Below, piece after piece: positions 9,362-25,790 of a stretch of DNA of 64,000 nucleotides. The position numbers and the translations under genes were made by a program. Where the stretch lies: positions 306,735-370,734 of the forward strand of contig NZ_FMYY01000001.1 in assembly GCF_900101595.1 (NCBI RefSeq), given 5' to 3'. Each line of letters begins with the position of its first letter. The stretch's first letter is position 1. The notes under the pieces were generated by a model. It ran no database searches and was not told the DNA's origin. It saw nothing but the letters and a program-made list of their open reading frames with translations. Source of the DNA: Paenibacillus sp. cl123 (GTDB taxonomy: Bacteria > Bacillota > Bacilli > Paenibacillales > NBRC-103111).

Positions 9362-9625
9362 ATGTCCCACACGGTTCCCGAACACTACTACACGAAGCTG
9401 AAGGAGCTGCAGGCGATTGATTTCGTCATCGTAGAGCTGACGCTGTATCTCGATACGCATCCTGATGATACTCAGGCCATCGAGCAGTATAACCGGTTTG
9501 TGCAGCATCGCATGCAGATTGCGCAGGAATTTCAGGCCGAGTTCGGTCCGCTGACCAGCTTCGGCTACAGCTTTTCCAAGGCCCCCTGGCAGTGGAAGGA
9601 AGCTCCGTGGCCTTGGCAGGTATGA
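9362..9625 (+). CDS. cotJB: Spore coat protein CotJB
   Basis: An 87-residue protein with the CotJB pattern: YYTKLKELQAIDFVIVELTLYLDTHPDD, then an acidic/aromatic helix and a C-terminus rich in Trp and Pro (APWQWKEAPWPWQV). It is the middle gene of the cotJ operon and is thought to form a complex with CotJA and CotJC in the spore coat. A strong AAGGAGGAG precedes the ATG at 9362. Length fits the family. Confidence 0.93.
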   Translation: MSHTVPEHYYTKLKELQAIDFVIVELTLYLDTHPDDTQAIEQYNRFVQHRMQIAQEFQAEFGPLTSFGYSFSKAPWQWKEAPWPWQV

Positions 9626-9672: not shown

Positions 9673-10242
9673 ATGTGGGTGTATGAGAAGAAGCTTCAAT
9701 ACCCGGTCAGAGTCAGCAAATGCGATCCTCAGATGGCCAAATTCCTGACCGAGCAGTACGGAGGCGCTGACGGTGAGCTGTCTGCGGCGCTTCGGTATTT
9801 AAATCAGCGGTACACGATACCGGATAAAGTGGTCGGATTACTTACGGACATCGGAACGGAGGAGTTTGCGCATCTGGAAATGATTGCCACTATGGTGTAT
9901 AAGCTGACTAAAGACGCTACGGTTGAGCAGCTGAAGGCCGTTGGGCTGGGCGATCATTATGCCAATCACGATAAAGCGCTGTATTACGAGAACGCCAGCG
10001 GGGTGCCATGGACAGCTTCCTATATCCAGGCCAAAGGCGATCCGATCGCAGACCTGTACGAGGATATCGCTGCCGAAGAGAAGGCGAGGGCTACTTATCA
10101 ATGGCTGATCGATATGACCGACGATGTCGATCTGCAGGACAGCCTGAAGTTTTTGCGGGAACGGGAGATTGTGCATTCGCTGCGCTTCCGGGAGGCGGTG
10201 GAGATTCTGAAGGCGGAGCAGGGGGCGAAGAAGTTTTATTGA
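9673..10242 (+). CDS. cotJC: Spore coat protein CotJC, manganese-catalase family
   Basis: The 189-residue protein opens with MWVYEKKLQYPVRVSKCDPQ, the standard CotJC start, and has the ferritin-like di-manganese fold: Glu ligands in GGADGELSAALRYL and EEFAHLEMIATMVY, and a second pair in EDIAAEEKARATYQWL and EREIVHSLRF. It is a short form of manganese catalase carried in the spore coat and may break down hydrogen peroxide. It is the last gene of cotJABC. AAGGAGGGAG precedes the ATG at 9673. Confidence 0.94.
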   Translation: MWVYEKKLQYPVRVSKCDPQMAKFLTEQYGGADGELSAALRYLNQRYTIPDKVVGLLTDIGTEEFAHLEMIATMVYKLTKDATVEQLKAVGLGDHYANHDKALYYENASGVPWTASYIQAKGDPIADLYEDIAAEEKARATYQWLIDMTDDVDLQDSLKFLREREIVHSLRFREAVEILKAEQGAKKFY

Positions 10243-13218: not shown

Positions 13219-13390
13219 CGAAAAATCGTATAAATGGGCTCGGCTGGCGGGCAAAAGTAGGGGAAATGGGCGGAAAATCGTATAAACTTGCCCGACTGGC
13301 GGACAAACGTAGAGGAATTGTACGATAATTCGTATGAATAGTCGAAAATGTATCGCGAAGTGATCATAGTTGTACGAAAAATCGTACAAA
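13219..13390. repeat. 52-bp tandem repeat, about 3.3 degenerate copies
   Basis: Units start at 13219, 13271, 13323 and 13375, an exact 52-bp period. Each unit opens with CG(A/G)(A/T)AA(A/T)TCGTA(T/C) and the first two also share GGCTGGCGGGCAAAAGTAG / GACTGGCGGACAAACGTAG. The third copy is the most diverged and the fourth breaks off into the 18-bp repeats. No gene is evident here. The start of a worn earlier copy may be present at 13167. Confidence 0.8.
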
Positions 13391-13462
13391 GTCGGCGTCA
13401 GAGACGAGGTCGGCGCCAAAGACGAGGTCGGCGTCGGAGACGAGGTTGGAGCCGGAGAAGAA
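13391..13462. repeat. 18-bp tandem repeat (minisatellite), four copies
   Basis: GTCGGCGTCAGAGACGAG, GTCGGCGCCAAAGACGAG and GTCGGCGTCGGAGACGAG follow each other at 13391, 13409 and 13427. A worn fourth copy starts at 13445. The block directly continues the 52-bp array. The remaining non-coding stretch to 13610 is GC-rich and shows nothing I can name. Confidence 0.85.
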
Positions 13463-13610
13463 CTCCGAACCGAACCCGAGATCAGAATCGAAGTCGAGAC
13501 AGAACCCGCGGGTGACGGTGCCCGTCCGCTCAATTTGCGCCGTCGCTCGCCAAACGCTATGGGCCGCGGCCAACGCGTGCCGGCGAAAGCGCCGCTGCGC
13601 CCGCATGACC

Positions 13611-13640
13611 AAGAACCGTCCGGCTGCCCGGACGGTTCTT
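13611..13640 (-). terminator. Hairpin ending the ATP-grasp cluster
   Basis: AAGAACCGTCCGG (13611-13623) pairs with CCGGACGGTTCTT (13628-13640), a 13-bp perfect stem with a 4-nt loop, placed just after the stop of the last ATP-grasp gene. No real T-run follows on the minus strand, so it may be a 3'-end stabiliser as much as a terminator. Confidence 0.6.
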
Positions 13641-13643
13641 GCT

Positions 13644-14747
13644 TTAGCTCGATTCCGACTGCTTCTGGCGAATGAGCCACAGGCCGTATTCCAGCGGCCG
13701 GCTGATCGCTCGCCGGTACGTTTCCTTCTCCCCGATCCGGCTGAACACCTCGCGGGAAGGCTTGGGGTTGACCTCCAGCAGCCAGACATGCCCCCTGGGA
13801 TCGACGGCAAGGTCGAGGCCGGCTTCGCAGAACGGGCCGAACTTGGCTTCCAGATGGTGAGCGATGCGGATGCCAAGGTCATAAGCCTCCTTGCGGATGT
13901 CGCTCACCTTTTTCCCGCTGCCGAAGCGGCTTCTCAGCAAGGACTCCATGGATATCGCCGACCCGCCGCCATGCAGATTGGAGGTGACGGACTGCCTGGG
14001 GCCGATCCGGCCGGCGCAGCCGGTTACCCGCCATTGTCCTTGACCGTCCTTCTGCACGAGCATTCGGAAGTCATGCACCCTGCCATCCTTCAGCTCCAGC
14101 GGAATTCCCTGCTGCACGATGTAGCGCTCGCCAAGCTTCCAGCCTGCCAGCCGGGCGGGGATTTGCTCGACCGTTACTTTGCGGGCCGAGATGATGCGCC
14201 GATCGGAATCACGCCCCTGCATCAGGCAGGCATTCGCCCCCGGGAGCCGCTGCAGCCGGATAATGCCCCTGCCGCCGGTGCCGCTTTTGGGCTTCATGAA
14301 CACGATCGCATGCTTTTTCAGAAATTCGCCCAGCTCCTTGGTGTTCTTATAGCGCAAGGTCGCAGGCAGATGAGGGGCGATGCCCGGATGCTCGGAGAGC
14401 AGCTGATGCATCGTCCACTTGTTGGCCAGCGGCTTGCTCAAGTAGCGGAGCTTCGTATATTTCTTGCGGAATTGCGATATTTTGCGAAAGTTGTCTATCC
14501 CGTGATAGCGGCATCTGTCATAGATGACCTGCGGAAAACCGCTCCACTTTCGCACCCATCTGCGTTCGGACGCCTTGTAAGTCAGCGTGTGTATCCGGGT
14601 CCCATTCTCATGGACGTCATCAGGAGTGAACACAAGAACTTCCACGCCCAGCTTCTCCCCCGACACGCACAGCTTGCGGAAGAACGACAGCTCTTCGAGC
14701 CGCCGTCCGTTCATGTACATGGCCAGCACGCCTATCTGTTTGCTCAT
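13644..14747 (-). CDS. YheC/YheD-family spore coat-associated ATP-grasp protein (paralogue 5, short form)
   Basis: 367 residues, the length of Bacillus YheC. A short N-terminal part (IGVLAMYMNGRRLEE, VLVFTPDDV) leads into an ATP-grasp fold: FMKPKSGTGGRGIIRL as the nucleotide loop, YIVQQGIPLELKDGRVHDFR, TSNLHGGG, and the metal-binding end DLAVDPRGHVWLLEVNPKP with Glu and Asn kept. ATP-grasp enzymes join a carboxylate to an amine or thiol through an acyl phosphate; no substrate is known for YheC/YheD, which are reported as spore-associated. It is the last gene of the five, 15 bp after the one at 14763. AGGTGA precedes the ATG. Confidence 0.9.
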   Translation of the reverse strand: MSKQIGVLAMYMNGRRLEELSFFRKLCVSGEKLGVEVLVFTPDDVHENGTRIHTLTYKASERRWVRKWSGFPQVIYDRCRYHGIDNFRKISQFRKKYTKLRYLSKPLANKWTMHQLLSEHPGIAPHLPATLRYKNTKELGEFLKKHAIVFMKPKSGTGGRGIIRLQRLPGANACLMQGRDSDRRIISARKVTVEQIPARLAGWKLGERYIVQQGIPLELKDGRVHDFRMLVQKDGQGQWRVTGCAGRIGPRQSVTSNLHGGGSAISMESLLRSRFGSGKKVSDIRKEAYDLGIRIAHHLEAKFGPFCEAGLDLAVDPRGHVWLLEVNPKPSREVFSRIGEKETYRRAISRPLEYGLWLIRQKQSESS

Positions 14748-14762
14748 CTGACATTCACCTGC

Positions 14763-15893
14763 CTACCCTTGGCTGCCGTTTTTTCGGGACAAAAAAATGG
14801 AGTAGCGAATCAAGTTCTCCAGCGATTTTTGCCGGATCGGCGGCTCATCGAATTTCATCGGCTTGGAATTGGCCTCGAAAAACCAGATGTGCCCGTCGTT
14901 GTCCACACCCAGGTCCATCGACATCTCTCCCAAAGTTTGCCCGCTTGACGCTTCGACCTGCTTGGCGATCAGAAGCGCCGCCTGCTTGGCGGTGCGAATA
15001 ATTTTTTTTCCTTCCGTCTGACCGAACGCATGGGCAAGCAGCTTGCCGGGATCGTCGATCGAGCCGCCTCTGGGCACATGGGTCGTGATGCTGGATCTCC
15101 CGGCAAGACGGGCGCCGACCCCCGCCACGGTCCAGTGGCCCTTATAATTTTTTTGGACCAGCACGCGCAGATCGAACGGACGGCGCTTGTAGCTGGAGAG
15201 GGCGATGCCCTGTTGAATGATATAATCCTTGGAGCCCACAAGCTCCCGGACCTGCGACCAGAGCTGGGAAACGGTAGGATACCGTGAAATTTGACTTCGC
15301 GTTTTATCCTGGATGCTTAGCTCGAACTGCCCGGCCCTTGCCCGGCCCTCCGTCCGGCTGACCTTCATGATGCCTTTGCCTGCTTTGCCGCGAATCGGTT
15401 TGAGATACAGGAACGGGTACGATTGCAGCAGCTTGTCGATATCCTCGCCGGAGGACAGCTTTTTCGTTTCCGGAATATAAGGTTTTGTCAGCTTGGATTT
15501 GTTCAGCCACTCGAACATCGTCCACTTGTTGAAGAACGATGGGTTGAAAAACCGGACCCGGCTATGGCGCAAGCAGGTCTGGATGACCTGCTGCACCTCC
15601 GGCAGCACTTCAAACTTCCGATAGGGAATCCGGTTGTAGATGACATGGGGCATCGGGAGCAGCTCCCGCTTCCAGGACTTGGTGGCCGCCCGGTAGCGGT
15701 AGCCGACGGCCTGCTTGCCGCTGAGCTTGAAGTCGGCGGTGGTCATCACATAGACCAGCACGCCGCGCTCCTCTCCGGCCCGGATCAGATCGATAAAATT
15801 TTCCTGATTCCCCCGAAAAACTCTTTTTTCATCCGCATACGTGAGAATGGCAAGGGTCGGACGCTGACGGGTGTTCTGGATTCGGCCCTCCAC
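14763..15893 (-). CDS. YheC/YheD-family ATP-grasp protein (paralogue 4, short form)
   Basis: 376 residues, YheC-like in length. Visible elements are TLAILTYADEKRVFRGNQEN at the start, NKWTMFEWL, the nucleotide loop YLKPIRGKAGKGIMKV, DYIIQQGIAL, DLRVLVQKN, TTHVPRGGSID and the closing DLGVDNDGHIWFFEANSKP with the metal-binding Glu and Asn. It starts at GTG (15893), and the stop TGA of the gene before it (15896-15894) touches this GTG directly; AAGGAGGG lies inside the end of that gene. Translational coupling is therefore likely. Substrate unknown. Confidence 0.9.
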   Translation of the reverse strand: MEGRIQNTRQRPTLAILTYADEKRVFRGNQENFIDLIRAGEERGVLVYVMTTADFKLSGKQAVGYRYRAATKSWKRELLPMPHVIYNRIPYRKFEVLPEVQQVIQTCLRHSRVRFFNPSFFNKWTMFEWLNKSKLTKPYIPETKKLSSGEDIDKLLQSYPFLYLKPIRGKAGKGIMKVSRTEGRARAGQFELSIQDKTRSQISRYPTVSQLWSQVRELVGSKDYIIQQGIALSSYKRRPFDLRVLVQKNYKGHWTVAGVGARLAGRSSITTHVPRGGSIDDPGKLLAHAFGQTEGKKIIRTAKQAALLIAKQVEASSGQTLGEMSMDLGVDNDGHIWFFEANSKPMKFDEPPIRQKSLENLIRYSIFLSRKNGSQG

Positions 15894-17261
15894 TCAAGAA
15901 TCCCTCCTTGCGCGAAATCGGCTTAAATACAGGCAGTAGTCATATATATACTGAAGAGACGCCCTGCCTTGTTCCTTCAGCGCCGGATGCTTGAAGATCG
16001 AGCGGCCGGGCTTGGAGTTGGCTTCGAACATCCAGATCCGCTCATTTTTGTCGATGCCGATATCGAAGCCGAGCTCGCCCAGCGTATGCCTGTAGTTGCG
16101 CTCGATGTCTTGCGCCAGCTTGATGGCCGCTTCCTTGGCATGCGACAGCACCGAATCGGCACGACTGCCGAATACCTGGCGCAGCACCTGCTCGGGCGTC
16201 ATCAGCATGCCTCCGGTGCGCACATGCGTCGTTACGCTGCCTTTGCCGGCCTTCTTGGCTCCGATGGCGGCGACGACCCATTGGTTCGAGCTATTTTTGG
16301 TCATGTGGAAGCGGAAGTCGATCGGACAGCTGTCCAGCTCGATCAGGCGAATGCCCTGCTGGGCGACATAGCCGTTTAATCCGCCGCTTTGGCGGTTCAG
16401 CATCGTCATCAGCGAGTCGAACTTGCTGAAGCGGAGCAGCACATTGCGTCCGGCCCGGCGGAAGCGGGCGTAATAGCCGCGCTGCGGATTATAGGTCAGC
16501 CGGTAAATCCCGATGCCGAGGCTGCCTCCGGTCGGCTTGAAGTAGATGAACTTATGCTTGTCGAGCATCTCCTTGATCTGCGAGGCGCTCGGATTGATGT
16601 GGGATTCGGGCACATGGCGGAACGCTTCGGTTCCGGCGAGCAGGTTATATACATCCCACTTGTCGAAGAAGCTCCAGTTGAACAGCGGAATTCCCCGCCT
16701 TACAAAGCGCTGCTTGAAGGCGTTGTTGGAGGCCAGCTTCTCGGCCTTGCGGCTAGGAAGCCTGTTGTAGACGACGTCGGGCAGCGGAACCACCTTGCGC
16801 ACCCAGCCTCCTTCGCTTCTCGGGACGGTGGCGGTGATCGTGCCTTGGGTCCAGTTGACGTCGCCGGGAGAGAACCCGAAGTAAAAGGCCCGATCCGCTC
16901 CGACCCTCATGAACTGGCGAATGAACTCGGTCCGCGAACCGAAGGGAGCCGAGCTGCCACGGACGACGCTGGTCAAAATGCCGATCATCGGTCCAAGCCG
17001 CAGCTCCCTGCCGTTCGAGCTGGTCACCAGCGTCGTGCCCGCTCTGGGCAGCCTCAGCTGGGAGTAGACGGACGGTGTAAGGTACAGATGATTTCCGCTT
17101 TTCTTCAGCAGCTTGAGCCCCAAGGAGATGCTTTTGCTGCCGAGCTTTAAAGTTATGCTGCGGGATTTGGCCAGCTTCAGCGCTTTGGCCAAATCGCCGC
17201 TGACATATACGACGCGTTCCTGCCGGCTAGCGACATGAATCGTGCAGGTTGTCAAGCTCAT
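15894..17261 (-). CDS. YheC/YheD-family ATP-grasp protein (paralogue 3, long form)
   Basis: 455 residues, the length of Bacillus YheD. The N-terminal ~95 residues form an extra beta-rich domain (VYVSGDLAKALKLAKSRSI, LKLGSKSISLGLKLLKKSG) that the short paralogues lack. The ATP-grasp part follows: FKPTGGSLGIGIYRL, GYVAQQGIRLIELDS, DFRFHMTKN, TTHVRTGGM and DIGIDKNERIWMFEANSKPG. AGGAGGTT precedes the ATG. A 138-bp gap separates it from the gene upstream (17400-18626), so a second promoter or a processing site may lie there; I could not identify one. Confidence 0.9.
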   Translation of the reverse strand: MSLTTCTIHVASRQERVVYVSGDLAKALKLAKSRSITLKLGSKSISLGLKLLKKSGNHLYLTPSVYSQLRLPRAGTTLVTSSNGRELRLGPMIGILTSVVRGSSAPFGSRTEFIRQFMRVGADRAFYFGFSPGDVNWTQGTITATVPRSEGGWVRKVVPLPDVVYNRLPSRKAEKLASNNAFKQRFVRRGIPLFNWSFFDKWDVYNLLAGTEAFRHVPESHINPSASQIKEMLDKHKFIYFKPTGGSLGIGIYRLTYNPQRGYYARFRRAGRNVLLRFSKFDSLMTMLNRQSGGLNGYVAQQGIRLIELDSCPIDFRFHMTKNSSNQWVVAAIGAKKAGKGSVTTHVRTGGMLMTPEQVLRQVFGSRADSVLSHAKEAAIKLAQDIERNYRHTLGELGFDIGIDKNERIWMFEANSKPGRSIFKHPALKEQGRASLQYIYDYCLYLSRFRARRDS

Positions 17262-17399
17262 GTTGAACCTCCTAAAGGACGATGCCGCTTAGGCATTGAT
17301 TTGAGGTACAGGATGCCGGGAGCCCGGGAAAACGGATGGGCATATCGGCATATGCTGTACCCGGTGTACCCGGACTGGCTGTTTCTTGCTCGCGCGAAT

Positions 17400-18626
17400 C
17401 TATTTCTGCTCACGAAGCTCTGCCTGGCCTTCCGTCCGGTCAGCCGTGCGATATGCCTTCACAGTCATTGCCGCGCCCGGAGCGAGACCGCTGCCCCCGG
17501 CATGACGGAGCAAGTAATCGGCGTACCGGAGCGGAGAGGAAGCAGCAGCCAGTTGCGCTCGTTCATCGTGTAAATGAGTAAAGATAGAGCGGCCGGGTTT
17601 GGAATTGGCTTCCAGCAGCCAAATATGTCCGCCGCGGTCGATCCCGAAGTCGAGACCCAGCTCGGCGAGCCGCCCATGACCGGCTTCCAGCGCTTCTGGC
17701 ACGATCTCGCAGAGCCGGCTCAGCTCTTCCAGAAGAGCGTCAGCGCGTTCCCGTCCGAATTCCCGGGCGAGCCATGGCTCGGCTGCCGCCACGCGGCCGC
17801 CTCCGTGCAGATTGGAGGTCAGGCTGCCGTTCTGCCCGAGACGGACGCCGAACCCGGTGAGCCGCCAGCTGCCGCCAGCGGCCTTCTGCACCAGAGCGCG
17901 CACATCGAAGGCGTCGCCGTCTCCGGTATGCAGCTGCAAATAGCGCTGCACCAGGTAACGGCGGCGGCCGATGAGCCGGCGCAGCCAGCCAAACAGCTCG
18001 CCGGCGTTCGGGAAGCTGCGCGAGATGACGTTGTTGCAGGCGTCGCGGCCGCGCACGGTGAAGCGCGGGAAGCTGCCTTGCGCTTCGCGCCGCACATGCA
18101 GCACGCCGCGGCCCTGCGAGCCGCCGGCCGGCTTCAGCACGGCTTCGCCGTACTGCTTCAGCCACTCTGCCGCCGTGCGCATGCTGCGCAGCGGCTCGGT
18201 TTCGGGCAAGTACCGGGCGATCCGGCTGTCGGCTGCGAGCAGACGGTGCACCTCCCACTTCCCCTTCAAGCCGCAGCCGAGGAGGCGGATGCCGGGGCGG
18301 CGGTGAAGCTCAGCTATCGCAAGGCGGTAGTCGGCATATTGGCGGCGTGTCGTGCAGAAGCAGCGGTCATAGACGAGCGGCGGCAGGGCGAAGCTGCCGC
18401 TTACCCAGCTATGCGTCCCGGCGTCGTAATAGAAACCCGCGATGCGGGATTGCTTCCAGTCCGCACCCTCCGGCGTGAACACGAACACCCGCAGGCCGAG
18501 CTTGCGGCCGAGCAGGCATAAGCGGCGGTAGAAGCCGCGATTTTCGAACGGAGGAAATTGCTCCGCGGACGTAGTCAAAATACCCAGCGAGCGGGTGCTG
18601 CCCGGAGGCATTCCGGTTGTCGGCAT
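17400..18626 (-). CDS. YheC/YheD-family ATP-grasp protein (paralogue 2, short form, GC-rich)
   Basis: 408 residues. It lacks the extra N-terminal domain and starts with a Thr/Pro/Gly tail before SLGILTTSAEQFPPFENRGF. The fold is complete: LKPAGGSQGRGVLHV, YLVQRYLQL, DVRALVQKA, TSNLHGGGRV and DFGIDRGGHIWLLEANSKPG. About 30 extra C-terminal residues rich in Thr, Arg and Glu follow. The coding sequence is clearly richer in GC, Ala and Arg than its neighbours (above all 17740-18260), which suggests a different history or a strong third-position bias. It shares TSNLHGGG with paralogue 5, so these two may be closest. Start ATG at 18626 behind GAGGTG. Confidence 0.88.
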   Translation of the reverse strand: MPTTGMPPGSTRSLGILTTSAEQFPPFENRGFYRRLCLLGRKLGLRVFVFTPEGADWKQSRIAGFYYDAGTHSWVSGSFALPPLVYDRCFCTTRRQYADYRLAIAELHRRPGIRLLGCGLKGKWEVHRLLAADSRIARYLPETEPLRSMRTAAEWLKQYGEAVLKPAGGSQGRGVLHVRREAQGSFPRFTVRGRDACNNVISRSFPNAGELFGWLRRLIGRRRYLVQRYLQLHTGDGDAFDVRALVQKAAGGSWRLTGFGVRLGQNGSLTSNLHGGGRVAAAEPWLAREFGRERADALLEELSRLCEIVPEALEAGHGRLAELGLDFGIDRGGHIWLLEANSKPGRSIFTHLHDERAQLAAASSPLRYADYLLRHAGGSGLAPGAAMTVKAYRTADRTEGQAELREQK

Positions 18627-18650
18627 AAGCTTTGCACCTCGCTATCCGTC

Positions 18651-20018
18651 CTAAAATTTCGCGGCAAACCGCGAATACTGCACCAGCTGTCTGACCGAAG
18701 GACGAATTTTGTTCTCGGCGGACAGCGGGGTGTTATCTTCCTTGGAAGGCTTCGAGTTCACCTCGATCAGCCAGACGCGTCCGTTCGCATCCAGCGCCAG
18801 ATCCACGCCAAGCTCCGCAAAATGGCCCTGCACCTGGGCTTCGATTCCTTTGGCAATCTGCAGAGAGGCGCGCCGCAGCTTGGCGAGCCCTCCGGCAGCG
18901 GATGCCGAGCCGGAACGGGCCAGCGCGTCCTTGACCGTGCTGAGCGTGCCTCCTCTGGCGATGTTCGAGACGAAGTGATGATTGCCGGCGATCCGGGCCA
19001 CGATGGAGGTTACGCTCCATTGCCCGGTCTCCCCGCGCTGCACGACCGCCCTGAAGTCGACGGGCCGTCCGCCGACCGTCAGCAGGTTAAGGCCCTGCTG
19101 GATTTGGTAGCGCTGTGTTTTGATCTTGCCGGCCAGCGCCGAATACAGCGCAGTCACCGACGGATACGAAAGCTTCCTGGACCCGTTCAGACTGGCGAAA
19201 TGACAGGCGTAGCCTCCGCCCTCCTGCCTGCGGATGCGGATGATCCCTTTGCCGAGACTGCCGGTCACCGGCTTCAGGAACACAGTCGGGTACTTGGCGC
19301 ACATCGACTTGAGCTGCTGAAGCGACTTAAGCAGGTGGGACTCCGGCAAATACACCTGCAGGCCGGCTTCATGACGGAGCGCGTCGAACACCTCCGACTT
19401 GTTCAAGTATTTCTCATTGAACAGCAGCGTGTTCTGCTTCGCTCTCGCATGGGCGATAAACTGCTGCACGCTTGAGCGGTTTTCCAGCTTACGGCTGGTC
19501 AGCCGGTTATACAGCACATGCGGGAGCGGGAATGCCGCCTTTTTCCAGCCGCCGGCATAATGCCAGCCGCGTACCGTATCTCCTTGGGCGACGAGATCGT
19601 CGGGAGTGCTGAAGAATACGGCCGCCCCGTAGAGCCGGCATGCCTCGGTCAGTTCCCGGCAGAAAGCGGTATTGGCGCCGAACGGCTTGTCGGGAGTTCC
19701 GGCATAGACGCGGCTGACCATAACGCCGATCAGCGGGCCGAGCGTCAGCGCTTTGGCGGCCGATTTGTACTGCAGGCAGAGCCGGTGGCCGGTCGTCAAT
19801 CCCATGCGCGCTGCCAGCGCGCCGTTCAGACGCAGCACGCCCGGGGTGCCGGAAGGGATAACCCTTACGTCCTGACGGAAAGAACCGAACCGGAGCTGGA
19901 GCGGCTGGTGAGGCGGGATTTTCCATTTGCGCAGAAGCGAATCGCTGACCGCCACGATGGAGCCGTCTGTGGACGCGCCGGGAGCCTGTATCTGGATCTT
20001 TACCTTTGTTCTTTTCAT
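18651..20018 (-). CDS. YheC/YheD-family ATP-grasp protein (paralogue 1, long form)
   Basis: 455 residues with the YheD-like N-terminal domain (about 1-100: DSLLRKWKIPPHQPLQLRFG, LALTTGHRL-type turns) followed by the ATP-grasp domain: LKPVTGSLGKGIIRI, YQIQQGLNLL, DFRAVVQRG, VSNIARGGTLS and DLALDANGRVWLIEVNSKPS. It is the first gene of the minus-strand cluster; the next starts 24 bp downstream. AAGGAG precedes the ATG at 20018. The promoter should lie in 20019-20243, where the strand reads CATATGATGA near 20095; that is loosely like a mother-cell sigma -10 box but I would not claim it. Confidence 0.9.
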   Translation of the reverse strand: MKRTKVKIQIQAPGASTDGSIVAVSDSLLRKWKIPPHQPLQLRFGSFRQDVRVIPSGTPGVLRLNGALAARMGLTTGHRLCLQYKSAAKALTLGPLIGVMVSRVYAGTPDKPFGANTAFCRELTEACRLYGAAVFFSTPDDLVAQGDTVRGWHYAGGWKKAAFPLPHVLYNRLTSRKLENRSSVQQFIAHARAKQNTLLFNEKYLNKSEVFDALRHEAGLQVYLPESHLLKSLQQLKSMCAKYPTVFLKPVTGSLGKGIIRIRRQEGGGYACHFASLNGSRKLSYPSVTALYSALAGKIKTQRYQIQQGLNLLTVGGRPVDFRAVVQRGETGQWSVTSIVARIAGNHHFVSNIARGGTLSTVKDALARSGSASAAGGLAKLRRASLQIAKGIEAQVQGHFAELGVDLALDANGRVWLIEVNSKPSKEDNTPLSAENKIRPSVRQLVQYSRFAAKF

Positions 20019-20243
20019 ACGGTACTCCTTCCCAGCAAGAAGCGTCCTCCCAAGGTCCGATCATGCTTGGAACATTAAGAAACGAACTACTTCATCATAT
20101 GAGGGCATTTATCCCTTGGTGAGAGAAAACGAACGATTCTTGCAGGGCTCTTGTCCGCGCCGCCGCTTTGCGCAGGCTGAAACGGAGGCCCGTCTCCGGC
20201 AGGAGAAGACCGCCGCAGGCCGGCATGACGGGGCATGCCAAAG

Positions 20244-20284
20244 AGCCCCCTTCGCCGTTCCATACAGGAAAGGCGAAGGGGGCT
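20244..20284 (-). terminator. Terminator-like hairpin after the Gln-rich gene
   Basis: AGCCCCCTTCGCC (20244-20256) pairs perfectly with GGCGAAGGGGGCT (20272-20284), with a further TTCC/GGAA stem inside. It follows the stop of the gene at 20302 by 17 bp. Only CTCTTT follows on the minus strand. Confidence 0.7.
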
Positions 20285-20301
20285 GGGCAGCATGCCTAGG
20301 A

Positions 20302-20628
20302 TTACATCAAATTGGAGCTTCCCGCAGAGCTGTACGGCTGCGACTGGGAGCTTTGGATGATCGAGTCCATCTGCTGGATGCACTGCTGCAGGCGGCCTTG
20401 AATGTCTTGAATACGGCGCTGCTGAGCCTGCATCTGAATCTCGACCTGAGACTGGGCTTGCTGAAGATCCGTCTGAACCTGGACAAATTGCTGCTGCAGC
20501 TGGCGGAGCTTCTGGGAGCTGTTGCTGAGTCCGGACTGGGCGAGCGCCATCTGAGCCTCCTGAGCCTGCTGCATCCGCTGCTGCTGCTGCTGTTCCAGAA
20601 ACTGCTGATAAGATACGTTGTTCTGCAT
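20302..20628 (-). CDS. Small glutamine-rich coiled-coil protein
   Basis: 108 residues, nearly a third Gln, with long heptad-like stretches (LEQQQQQRMQQAQEAQ, LRQLQQQFVQVQTDLQQAQ) and a Ser-rich C-terminus (SSQSQPYSSAGSSNLM). It has one Cys and no signal peptide or membrane segment. AAGGAGGATG precedes the ATG at 20628. It lies 283 bp upstream of the ATP-grasp cluster on the same strand, with its own hairpin in between. I do not recognise a family. Gln-rich small proteins occur in spore coats as transglutaminase targets, so a coat protein is a reasonable but untested guess. Confidence 0.75.
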   Translation of the reverse strand: MQNNVSYQQFLEQQQQQRMQQAQEAQMALAQSGLSNSSQKLRQLQQQFVQVQTDLQQAQSQVEIQMQAQQRRIQDIQGRLQQCIQQMDSIIQSSQSQPYSSAGSSNLM

Positions 20629-22770: not shown

Positions 22771-22973
22771 GAGTCAACGCACCTCCCGTGAAGTTTGAGC
22801 TATTATCATGTCTATGCGCGATTGTCCGGGGTTATGGGTGGAAAATAAATTGGCGCCCCGTATCAGCGGGAACATGGCTCGCCGGCTGACTGAACCAGAT
22901 GCAATAGGCCGCCTGGACATGGTATGATCATGAATACAGAACTATCACAGCGTACATGAGGATGGTAGAACAG

Positions 22974-24323
22974 ATGGATCAGCAATCAGGACCGGTATTG
23001 CCGGATGCGGCGACCAAGCATGAGCAGATTATCAAATATATTGAAGGACTCAAGATCGGCAGCAAAATTTCTGTCCGCAAAATCGCCGAGAAGCTCGGCG
23101 TAAGCGAAGGGACGGCTTACCGGGCCATCAAGGAAGCGGATGCTATCGGACTTGTGGCGACCAAGGAACGGGTCGGGACGGTTCGGGTGGAGAAAAAGCT
23201 GCGCGATGAGCTGGACAAGCTTACCTTCGCCGAGGTCGTCAATATGGTGGACGGCGATGTGCTGGGGGGCAGAAGCGGACTGGAGAAGACGCTGCACAAG
23301 TTCGTCATCGGCGCGATGCAGCAGGATGCGATGATGCGCTACATCGACCCGGGCAGCCTGCTGATCGTCGGGAACCGGGCGAAGGCGCATATATGCGCGC
23401 TGGAGCAGGGAGCGGGCGTGCTGATTACGGGCGGCTTCGGCACGAGCGAAGAGGTGGTGCAGCTCGCCGATCAGCTCAAGCTGCCGATCATCTCGAGCAG
23501 CTACGATACGTTTACGGTAGCTTCCATGATCAACCGGGCGATCTACGACCGGCTGATTAAGAAAAAAATATTGCTGATCGACGACATCATCGTCCAGCCG
23601 ATGCAGGTGTACACGCTGCGCAGCCACCAGGGGACGGAGGACTGGAAGCGTCTGCACGAGGAAACCGGACACAGCCGTTTCCCTGTCGTGGACGAATGGA
23701 ATCGGGTGATCGGCATGATTACCCCGCGCGATCTGATCGGCGCCTCCGGCAGCCAGACGATCGACAAGCTGATGACGCGCAACCCGGTAACGGCCCTCGC
23801 CAATACGTCGGTGGCCTCGGCCGCCCACCTGATGGTATGGGAGGGCATCGAGCTGCTGCCGATCGTCGATGCCGGCCGCAAAATCGTCGGCGTCATCAGC
23901 CGGCAGGACGTACTGAAGGCGATGCAGCATGTGCAGCGGCAGCCTCAGCACGGCGAGACGTTCGAGGATCTGATCTGGTCGGGCTTTACCCAGGACAAGG
24001 ACGCCTCCGGCCAGCTGCTGTTCCGGGGGGCGATCACGCCCCAGATGACCGGCAGGCTCGGCACGGTGTCGGAGGGGGTGCTGACGGTGCTGTTGACGCA
24101 GGCGGCTTATCATTCCATCCAGGATATGAAGAAAGTCGATCTGGTAGTCGACAATATGTCGTCCTACTTCGTGAAGCCGCTGCAGATCGACAGCATCGTG
24201 GAGATCCGGCCGAAGATCATCGAGATCAGCCGCAAATTCGGCAAGCTGGACGTGGAGATGTACTTGAACGGAGCGCTGGTCGCGAAGGCGATGCTGACGG
24301 CGCAGGTCATCGAGCCGGCTTAG
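22974..24323 (+). CDS. ytoI: YtoI-like regulator: HTH, DRTGG, two CBS domains, hotdog domain
   Basis: The N-terminus (MDQQ..., ATKHEQIIKYIEGL, ISVRKIAEKLGVSEGTAYRA) is a winged HTH. A DRTGG domain follows (about 85-190, with GVLITGGFGTSEEVVQ), then two CBS domains (about 200-315, MTRNPVTALANTSVASAAHL) and a C-terminal hotdog-fold domain (about 335-445). This is the domain order of YtoI; CBS pairs usually sense adenine nucleotides, and the hotdog part may bind an acyl-CoA. The ATG at 22974 (AGGATGG 8 nt upstream) is preferred to 22956. It stands next to ytpI as in Bacillus. Target genes are unknown. Confidence 0.88.
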   Translation: MDQQSGPVLPDAATKHEQIIKYIEGLKIGSKISVRKIAEKLGVSEGTAYRAIKEADAIGLVATKERVGTVRVEKKLRDELDKLTFAEVVNMVDGDVLGGRSGLEKTLHKFVIGAMQQDAMMRYIDPGSLLIVGNRAKAHICALEQGAGVLITGGFGTSEEVVQLADQLKLPIISSSYDTFTVASMINRAIYDRLIKKKILLIDDIIVQPMQVYTLRSHQGTEDWKRLHEETGHSRFPVVDEWNRVIGMITPRDLIGASGSQTIDKLMTRNPVTALANTSVASAAHLMVWEGIELLPIVDAGRKIVGVISRQDVLKAMQHVQRQPQHGETFEDLIWSGFTQDKDASGQLLFRGAITPQMTGRLGTVSEGVLTVLLTQAAYHSIQDMKKVDLVVDNMSSYFVKPLQIDSIVEIRPKIIEISRKFGKLDVEMYLNGALVAKAMLTAQVIEPA

Positions 24324-24771: not shown

Positions 24772-25293
24772 TCAACCTCCTGCCATGGAAACCGGAATTC
24801 GCTTCCATTCCTTGACGGTTACCCATACTTTCAGCTCCGACTGGGTCAGCACGATCCATCTGACGGACAGAACCAGGTAGTCTTTGTCCAGCACGCCGAG
24901 CAGCGGCTTTTCCTTCAGAATTTGCTCGTAAACGTCAGGCATCGCCGCGAACTCGGATATTTTCCGTCCGACCACGACCGGCTTGAGCTGAGCATGCACG
25001 CGGCGCTGGAGCTCGCTCTCCGTCACCTTGTCGATTTCCGTATGCTCGTCCGGGTCGATATACACATTGAGCAGATTGATCGTCGTCTGCTGATTTTTTG
25101 TTTTCCGCAGGTTGGCGACATCGCCTTCCAGCCGGCTGTTTTCCGTCAGCAGCTCCCGGTTCTGCTCGATCATCATATTAAGCCGCGCATTATAGATGCT
25201 GAGGAACAGCGCCGCACCGATCACCATCCCGGCGATGACCAGGCCGATGGCCTGCAGATGCTTGAAGCCGAGTCCTTCCGGAGGCACTCTCAC
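24772..25293 (-). CDS. ytrI: Sporulation membrane protein YtrI
   Basis: 173 residues. MRVPPEG at the start, one membrane helix (about 16-36), a coiled-coil stretch (MMIEQNRELLTENSRLEGDV) and a C-terminal domain outside the membrane fit YtrI, a mother-cell protein needed for efficient sporulation. The start is the GTG at 25293, because its GTGA overlaps the TGA stop of ytrH (25292-25290) by 4 bp and the family begins with MRVPP. The in-frame ATG at 25320 would add a tail inside ytrH. Translation is probably coupled to ytrH. Confidence 0.88.
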   Translation of the reverse strand: MRVPPEGLGFKHLQAIGLVIAGMVIGAALFLSIYNARLNMMIEQNRELLTENSRLEGDVANLRKTKNQQTTINLLNVYIDPDEHTEIDKVTESELQRRVHAQLKPVVVGRKISEFAAMPDVYEQILKEKPLLGVLDKDYLVLSVRWIVLTQSELKVWVTVKEWKRIPVSMAGG

Positions 25294-25622
25294 CCGGCGC
25301 TCCCCCCCCGGCATATCCACTGGATCAGCGTCGTTCCCATATGGGCGCCGGTGAAGGCGCAGACAATATACAGAATTTGCTGAATGGCAGGCGAGATATG
25401 ACCATCCTGAAAATGCGTCTCAATGGCGCGAATCGGGTCAATCGTGCCGCCGATCGCCGCAACCATCGCCCATATCTTGATCTGCTCGGCCACCGTCAGC
25501 ATCCTGTGAACCGGCGGGTCGAGCGTGATGACGGAGGAGATGCCCGCCAGCATAGTTCCTCCCAAGACGACCCCGAACGCAATGAAGAAATCCAGCAAGC
25601 ATTTGGACAGAAAAACAGCCAC
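25290..25622 (-). CDS. ytrH: Sporulation membrane protein YtrH
   Basis: 110 residues starting at GTG (25622): V/M-AVFLSKCLLDFFIAFGVVLG, the family start, behind AAAGGGTG. Three membrane helices follow, with IWAMVAAIGGTIDPIRAIE and the end GAHMGTTLIQWI. YtrH, like YtrI, is made in the mother cell and is needed for normal spore formation in Bacillus. The longer reading from ATG 25718 adds residues unlike the family. It forms a two-gene operon with ytrI and is divergent from dnaE. Confidence 0.9.
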   Translation of the reverse strand: MAVFLSKCLLDFFIAFGVVLGGTMLAGISSVITLDPPVHRMLTVAEQIKIWAMVAAIGGTIDPIRAIETHFQDGHISPAIQQILYIVCAFTGAHMGTTLIQWICRGGSAG

Positions 25623-25790
25623 GTACGAACACCCTTTCTTGGCATTGACCTTTCCGCTTTCTTCGGACGGCGTCTGAAGAGCCAAGCAGGAGCTTGGCCG
25701 CCGGGCGGTTACTATCATCTATATGGCACACTTGTTCGTATTATGCTAAAATATATGAATGAAGACAGAGAACGGGGAGGCGTCGGGCGC

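Follow-up and report, generated by a model that had tools for sequence, protein, structure and literature searches.

The closest described relatives of the genes treated here are yheC and yheD of Bacillus subtilis. According to two reports, YheD of this bacterium is found in two rings and then in a shell around the spore, and this localization depends on SpoIVA (PMC7911427, PMC7769602). In the former, YheD is listed as a spore-surface protein with a function given as unknown in 2021 (PMC7911427); the YheD work considered here was done in B. subtilis. For Paenibacillus, the literature mentions orf14, a single YheC/D-like gene between gyrA and gyrB (PMC5627462, citing Iiyama 2014). Here we describe a stretch of 64,000 nucleotides from Paenibacillus sp. 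cl123 (the window), which harbors five genes of this family in a row; orf14 belongs to the same YheC/D family, yet it is a lone gene at the gyr genes. Our comparison of related genomes indicates that the five-gene array is an old operon, and that the yheC-yheD pair looks like its remnant.

The five genes are located on the minus strand between positions 13644 and 20018, and all of them are full open reading frames (ORFs). Their products match the YheC/YheD ATP-grasp family PF14398 over nearly the entire 255-position profile (E 3.7e-75 to 8.7e-82), reaching 252.9 to 274.6 bits against a curated cut-off of 26.8 bits. In the order of transcription, D2-C3-D1-C2-C1 (long, short, long, short, short; lengths in amino acids, aa), they are:

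18651 to 20018, minus strand: D2, first gene of the array, predicted N-terminal barrel domain and YheC/D ATP-grasp ligase, 455 aa; PF14398 E 1.1e-78; a separate clade in both trees
17400 to 18626, minus strand: C3, short YheC/D ATP-grasp ligase in the position of B. subtilis yheC, 408 aa; PF14398 E 3.7e-75; clusters with the B. spizizenii gene in the yheC position
15894 to 17261, minus strand: D1, predicted N-terminal barrel domain and ATP-grasp ligase in the position of B. subtilis yheD, 455 aa; PF14398 E 1e-81
16998 to 17261, minus strand: N-terminal domain of D1, residues 1-88, with a double-psi beta-barrel fold in the structure model
14763 to 15893, minus strand: C2, short YheC/D ATP-grasp ligase directly after D1, 376 aa; PF14398 E 8.7e-82; lacks the downstream GNAT gene of a number of other Bacilli (see below)
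13644 to 14747, minus strand: C1, last gene of the array, short YheC/D ATP-grasp ligase, 367 aa; PF14398 E 5.5e-80

The original prediction, made from the letters of the window, had proposed five intact, diverged ATP-grasp genes consecutive on one strand, with intact active sites, and our data bear this out. The alternation of long and short forms, which it had also described, applies to D2-C3-D1-C2 and breaks off at the end, where C2 and C1 are both short. Pairwise identity among the five proteins is 26-33%, and thus they are not recent copies; a recent duplication was ruled out by this low identity and by the separate clades that the positions form in the trees described below. All five proteins keep the motifs Lys-x-Pro, Asp-x-Arg and Glu-x-Asn (equivalents of Lys242, Asp315, Arg317, Glu413 and Asn415 in D1), which excludes loss of the active site in the window genes. 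The ratio of nonsynonymous to synonymous substitution rates (dN/dS) of 0.04-0.33 points to purifying selection on all five genes, weakest on C3, which evolves fastest (0.30-0.33). The genome contains nine PF14398 matches, five of them in the array. The other four (L006-L009) lie on other contigs, encode proteins of 237-262 aa and form a clade apart in the FastTree phylogeny.

A relative of D1 (E 1e-110 or better) was found in all 104 genomes, from 22 genera, of the family to which the window belongs, in one of them (G017) in two pieces. The order D2-C3-D1-C2-C1 is present in 85 of the 104 (84 of 103 fetched loci and the window); among these, D2 of G060 is broken (357 aa) and followed by another D2-like ORF. 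Four additional genomes harbor all five genes: in G004 and G005 a contig end interrupts the array, the assembly of G017 is frameshifted, and C3 of G026 is broken. Of the remaining 15, five gave no D2, nine gave no C1 at the locus, and one has its locus at a contig end. The G017 locus (L052) is part of a single-contig genome, and since several of its array genes are frameshifted at once, the breaks look more like assembly error than gene decay. Beyond the family, 15 of the 19 order-level loci (those with matches among 40 genomes of the order outside the family) carry all five genes in the same order. At the class level 18 of 20 loci carry D2-C3-D1-C2, three of these with C1 in addition; these 20 were picked from the best-scoring matches and hence are not a neutral sample. 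A further 20 loci from the phylum were selected by eye, and L150, with a length of 100 bases, was left out of the locus set. In four loci of one genus (L124, L125, L127 and L129) there is no C1, and extra D2-like or C1-like genes, mostly reversed, follow C2, perhaps as a result of a local second expansion.

In a FastTree phylogeny with 214 rows, each of the five positions forms its own group across Bacilli. A quick IQ-TREE analysis with 96 rows gave support values of 99 for C1, 97 for D2 and 96 for C2, while the value for D1 was 99 in Bacilli and 90 with rows from outer classes included. The C3 rows of Bacilli are on one side of a branch with a support of 92 in the Shimodaira-Hasegawa-like approximate likelihood ratio test (SH-aLRT), and the midpoint root is drawn within them. 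Thirteen dispersed genes (L172-L184) belong to the C1 clade; in some Bacilli, C1 is located at another site of the genome. Four loci from two families of another class (L202-L205) contain relatives of D2, D1 and C2 and a gene at the base of C3 plus C1, and therefore most of the gene set looks older than the class. Further arrays from outer classes show no one-to-one correspondence with the five positions. L192, L194, L196 and L199 are four-gene YheC/D arrays of this kind from another class (long-long-long-short), the first three of which were placed in the tree without a one-to-one match. Judged from these comparisons, the array represents an old operon in its Paenibacillales form rather than an expansion.

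The relation of this operon to yheC-yheD can be seen from named Bacillales genomes, which were scanned with a D1 alignment (D1 of B. nakamurai first in the query) and classified with hidden Markov models of the five positions. Among the best 80 of 559 relatives, all have a D1-type gene, 54 show D2-C3-D1-C2, 21 only C3-D1, and five other partial forms. By name or high identity, we take the 21 to be Bacillus of the subtilis, licheniformis and pumilus groups; none of them has D2, C2, C1 or the GNAT acyltransferase gene described below, and in this they differ from the window with its five ligases. The earlier statement that Bacillus has one yheC and one yheD thus fits these 21 loci but not the 54. 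The whole genome of B. nakamurai (G207, identical sequence) contains two PF14398 matches at E 1e-30.

B. subtilis was outside the tree set, and B. spizizenii served as a stand-in. Its locus comprises a YlbF-family gene, a DUF445 gene, C3, D1, a gene for an alpha/beta small acid-soluble spore protein and two long ORFs. The latter are presumably the ABC genes yheH-yheI, and we take the whole to be the yheA-to-yheI order of B. subtilis. Since the flanks match this order, C3 is, by sequence and context, yheC and D1 is yheD. The window genes follow suit: D1 groups with the YheD-position gene of the subtilis group in both trees, and C3 with its YheC-position gene. A YlbF/YheA neighbor is found in 77 of the same 80 named loci and in 38 of 110 Paenibacillales loci, which suggests that array and pair share one ancestral site. 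With 54 of the 80 loci in the fuller form and 21 reduced to the pair, the array seems to be the older state.

The proposed link of these ligases to sporulation is supported by co-occurrence with SpoIVA. Of 151 genomes of the class, 105 have matches to both PF14398 (E 1e-30) and SpoIVA, four only to PF14398, nine only to SpoIVA and 33 to neither (Fisher p 1e-20, phylogeny not corrected for); as with the counts on the promoter element and on residues given below, the sequences are related and not independent. G122, a genome from the order, lacks a SpoIVA match, and its best D1 match reaches only E 2e-21, yet it has four PF14398 matches. This pattern suggests that the array goes with sporulation, while the small PF14398 paralogues need not. 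Taken jointly, the anatomy of the array, its orthology and its link to the spore are well supported, and we hold them with high confidence.

The arrangement of the genes is compact. Median gaps are 9 bases between D2 and C3, 4 between C3 and D1, -1 between D1 and C2 (196 loci) and 6 between C2 and C1; the C3-D1 gap is at most 60 bases in 144 of 208 loci and 138 bases in the window. The following elements were found at the two ends of the array:

20302 to 20628, minus strand: Q, an ORF for a 108-aa Gln-rich coiled-coil-like protein without a match over a Pfam or NCBIfam cut-off; judged to be outside the system
20232 to 20296, no strand assigned: long hairpin between Q and D2 with 30-base arms, 80% complementary; possible end of the Q transcript, without a hit in the terminator scan
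20094 to 20121, minus strand: promoter-like element CACC-N16-CATATGAT upstream of D2, a sequence pattern resembling the sigma-K consensus in part
13610 to 13641, no strand assigned: perfect 14-base hairpin directly after C1; possible transcript end, without a hit in the terminator scan

The promoter-like element is the sole exact match in the whole 7.27-Mb genome. Its more general form, AC-N16/17-CATA-N3-T, was found in the 250 bases ahead of D2 in 183 of 195 loci (counting L185, a single dispersed gene scored as D2) and in seven on the reverse strand. The groups contribute 92 of 97 loci (family), 17 of 17 (order), 22 of 24 (class) and 52 of 57 (named). Before the other genes the pattern is rare: 8 of 213 loci for C3, 0 of 223 for D1, 2 of 199 for C2 and 3 of 129 for C1. 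Based on this sequence pattern, we consider a single promoter ahead of D2 to be likely. None of the 21 pair loci among the best 80 of 559 has the element before C3; therefore, as far as the pattern tells, the yheC-yheD pair is driven otherwise.

The likeness of the element to what we take to be the sigma-K consensus is partial, and the base after CATA-N3-T is mostly G. Control by sigma-K is a weak reading, and the element sequences are related; the strict sigma-K pattern with final TA is found before D2 in 48 of 191 loci (reverse 2), the strict sigma-E pattern in one of 191. It also has to be weighed against a report which describes yheC and yheD as sigma-E genes raised by SpoIIID (PMC517825). 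General scans were of little help: a looser scan for the element in the same genome gave mostly noise (16 sites, with 5 in the reversed control), the sigma-70 scan 2 sites against a shuffle mean of 1.7, and the terminator scan 9 against 7.4.

The original prediction had placed Q just upstream of the array and considered it as a substrate or scaffold of the ligases. Q is indeed upstream on the same strand, but 283 bases away, with the hairpin and the promoter-like element in between. That array and Q form one unit is favored by the presence of Q near the array in the window and in three relatives of the same genus, and by the conservation of Q itself (dN/dS 0.05 against G011). However, of the 104 family genomes only four have a Q homologue in the fetched stretches around the array; all four are from the genus of the window, with Q 0.3 to 2.7 kb from D2, and none was found there in the other 100. 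In 25 genomes of the genus there are seven strong homologues (E below 1e-20), three weak ones and none in 15, and three of the seven strong ones are located away from the array; beyond the genus, Q was looked for at array loci. We therefore ruled out Q as part of the array unit, consider a role as substrate or scaffold highly improbable, and treat Q as a neighbor only.

Conservation of the catalytic residues extends far beyond the window. Over 972 sequences, Lys, Asp, Arg and Asn are kept in 97-100% at each array position, and Glu in 96-100% except in C3 (69% Glu, 28% Asp). Other residues are near-invariant in a position-specific manner: residue 319 is His in D1 and mostly Leu in the others, residue 346 is His in D1 and C2 and Asn in D2, C3 and C1, and residue 416 is Pro in C1. 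This pattern is compatible with enzymes that use different substrates or catalyze consecutive steps. If the exchange of Glu for Asp is set aside, true losses of catalytic residues occur only in YheC of the pumilus group, all other misses being gaps in broken frames. In seven of seven loci of this group (L237, L241, L242, L247-L249 and L286) the catalytic residues of YheC are gone while the reading frame is intact, with changes of Lys to Gln, Asp to Glu, Glu to Asn, and Asn to Ser, Arg or Lys. This YheC is likely a pseudo-enzyme.

D1, the one array protein that was modelled (mean predicted local distance difference test, pLDDT, 95.1), resembles RimK 5zct best by Z score (Z 22.6, root-mean-square deviation (rmsd) 2.9, 276 aligned residues). 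It is followed by ArgX-LysW (21.2), glutathione synthetase (20.8), and then LysX, TTLL6 (18.7) and PsnB (17.9). RimK, LysX/ArgX and TTL form an acyl-phosphate from a carboxylate and ATP, and the acyl group is then joined to an amine. By its model, D1 clearly has an ATP-grasp ligase fold of the RimK/LysX/TTL-like type; because the Z ranking and the Foldseek ranking (see below) differ, a protein or peptide substrate is only suggested. The predicted fold is also what D1 has in common with RimK, LysX/ArgX-LysW and TTL/TTLL. The array proteins are far under the cut-off of the RimK family TIGR00768 (16.6 to 21.9 bits for three proteins, the other two unlisted, against 143.4 bits), and they differ by the extra barrel domain and by occurring as five paralogues in a spore-linked array. 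With phmmer, no match to D1 was found among PDB sequences. D-Ala-D-Ala ligases and glutathione synthetase, which act on small molecules, also share the ATP-grasp fold, but the array proteins reach at most 20.4 bits against glutathione synthase models with cut-offs of at least 272. The same fold is found in PsnB-type graspetide ligases, which act on a precursor peptide; unlike in these systems, no conserved small gene resembling a precursor stood out in the 25 largest neighbor clusters of the array.

The N-terminal part of D1 (residues 1-96), modelled alone with a pLDDT of 82.6, has as its best match a designed double-psi beta-barrel (Z 9.8, moderate; 81 residues, rmsd 2.3), followed by the N-domains of Cdc48 (Z 9.4) and PEX1 (9.2); Pfam gave insignificant matches only. 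By profile, from which the barrel of D2 was also deduced, the domain is present in 225 of 227 D1 and 189 of 200 D2 sequences, but in only one of 200 C2 and in none of 130 C1 and 215 C3. The N-domains of Cdc48 and PEX1 bind adaptors, and because of this analogy our guess is that the barrel may hold the acceptor.

In 29 fetched loci, C2 is followed by a gene of 152-206 codons for a GNAT acyltransferase (family assignment by Pfam match for four of them). It was found in 1 of 101 family, 7 of 19 order, 16 of 22 class, 4 of 20 phylum and 1 of 57 named loci. In all 25 loci in which both genes are classified it is on the strand of C2, ranging from an overlap to 306 bases downstream, and in the 11 loci whose array includes C1 it abuts or overlaps this gene, as read. 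A whole-genome search detected it in 46 of 151 class genomes, 45 times as a single copy, and all 46 also have PF14398 and SpoIVA matches; the profile was built from loci mostly inside the class sample, so those match by construction. In 25 genomes of the window's genus GNAT was not found (E 1e-8, with the class search as positive control). Since GNAT stands beside C2 in 25 of 25 loci and occurs in 46 of 151 genomes, the ancestor may have had six genes, GNAT included, and then GNAT must have been lost many times.

Our favored reading of how these enzymes work is as follows. The operon would be transcribed late in the mother cell by sigma-K, and each ligase would activate a carboxylate with ATP as an acyl-phosphate and join the acyl group to an amine. 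The barrel domain would allow D1 and D2 to bind the acceptor, C3, C2 and C1 would form further distinct amide bonds, and GNAT, where present, would transfer an acyl group to an amine. As the product we envisage either a coat protein that carries a modification or a short peptide of non-ribosomal origin that becomes part of the spore coat. We consider it likely, at about even odds, that the five genes encode functional amide ligases which are not redundant and which act on the coat in late sporulation. Action in sequence and a coat component as acceptor, both considered in the original prediction, are inferred.

Two versions of such an activity can be envisaged. In the first, the ligases would act successively and build a short peptide or acylated tag, which GNAT would cap before it is fixed to the coat. 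The fixed gene order with its short gaps, the position-specific residues and the acyltransferase gene adjoining C2 in many Bacilli are consistent with this. However, the B. subtilis group retains only C3-D1, GNAT is often missing, and D2 and C1 were not found at the family loci mentioned above (five and nine, respectively). Losses of single members count against a strict chain, which should break on loss, and we regard this version as rather doubtful. In the second, each ligase would have a separate coat protein as its target, to which it attaches an amino acid or an amine, and members could be lost singly. The patchy absence of D2, C1, C2 and GNAT would then be expected, C1 could sit elsewhere in the genome, and the closest folds by Z score, RimK and ArgX-LysW, are indeed protein-tagging ligases. 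On the other hand, parallel enzymes need no rigid order over deep time, and no acceptor gene stood out: among the 25 largest neighbor clusters around 110 Paenibacillales loci, no conserved small co-directional candidate was found. This second version is tentative, a possibility well short of even.

Several points weigh against working amide ligases of the coat in either version. A modelled fold by itself shows no reaction; by Foldseek E-value, D-Ala-D-Ala ligases come first (E 2.4e-11), and PPIP5K inositol-phosphate kinases and synapsin also score Z 17.7-17.8 against D1. GNAT is rare close to the window (0 of 25 genus genomes, 1 of 101 family loci) and in the named loci (1 of 57). Nine SpoIVA-positive class genomes are without a PF14398 match at E 1e-30, and the catalytic loss in YheC of the pumilus group means that catalysis by C3 is dispensable there. 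Anoxybacillus flavithermus is reported to be without yheD (PMC3533761). YheD is also reported to self-associate strongly, while two-hybrid assays detected no interaction with SpoIVA or further morphogenetic proteins (PMC7911427); a structural shell would explain this equally well. The proteins could thus be mainly structural, polymerizing in a nucleotide-driven manner as with SpoIVA and with little or no catalysis. The reported self-interaction and ring-then-shell localization of YheD (PMC7911427, PMC7769602) and the pumilus-group YheC would agree with this. Against it, Lys242 and Asp315 are substituted over 972 sequences in those seven YheC proteins only, and the GNAT gene is in the same operon in many Bacilli. 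We consider a mainly structural role unlikely.

Around the array, CotJC-like ORFs were found in 33 and CotJB-like ORFs in 28 of the 110 Paenibacillales loci; other neighbors were a HAD-like gene (78), a cation-efflux gene and ORFs resembling antisense artefacts. The window itself has two such genes on the plus strand, approximately 3.4 kb beyond the array: one for CotJB at 9362-9625 and, at 9673-10242, a CotJC-like one whose product belongs to the Mn-catalase family. Past the array end there are 18-base tandem repeats (13386-13475) and, at 13219-13322, a direct repeat of 52 bases with inverted repeats rich in ACGA/TCGT. Genes for YtrI-like and YtrH-like sporulation membrane proteins, both under the NCBIfam cut-offs, are located at 24772-25718, near a DRTGG/CBS gene at 22956-24323.

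YheC/D proteins are already known as ATP-grasp enzymes. Within the literature we searched, four features appear to be new: the operon as an ancestral unit, yheC-yheD as its remnant, the barrel domain and the association with GNAT. In the papers covered, none on a five-gene YheC/D operon was found; a 2009 amidoligase survey by Iyer and colleagues may treat YheC/D, so that this search does not settle priority for tandem operons.

A bolder idea, for which we see a limited chance only, is that spore formers among the Bacilli inherited a six-gene pathway of the late mother cell, with five amide ligases, two of them with an acceptor-binding barrel, and an acyltransferase, which would make an as yet unseen non-ribosomal peptide or tag in the coat. 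If this is true, the B. subtilis group lost most of the pathway, and its product was never found because the model organism belongs to this group. If the complete set consists of five ligases and an acyltransferase, the two-gene pair would be a poor place to seek the reaction, and Paenibacillus or other Bacilli with a fuller operon would be better suited to finding it.

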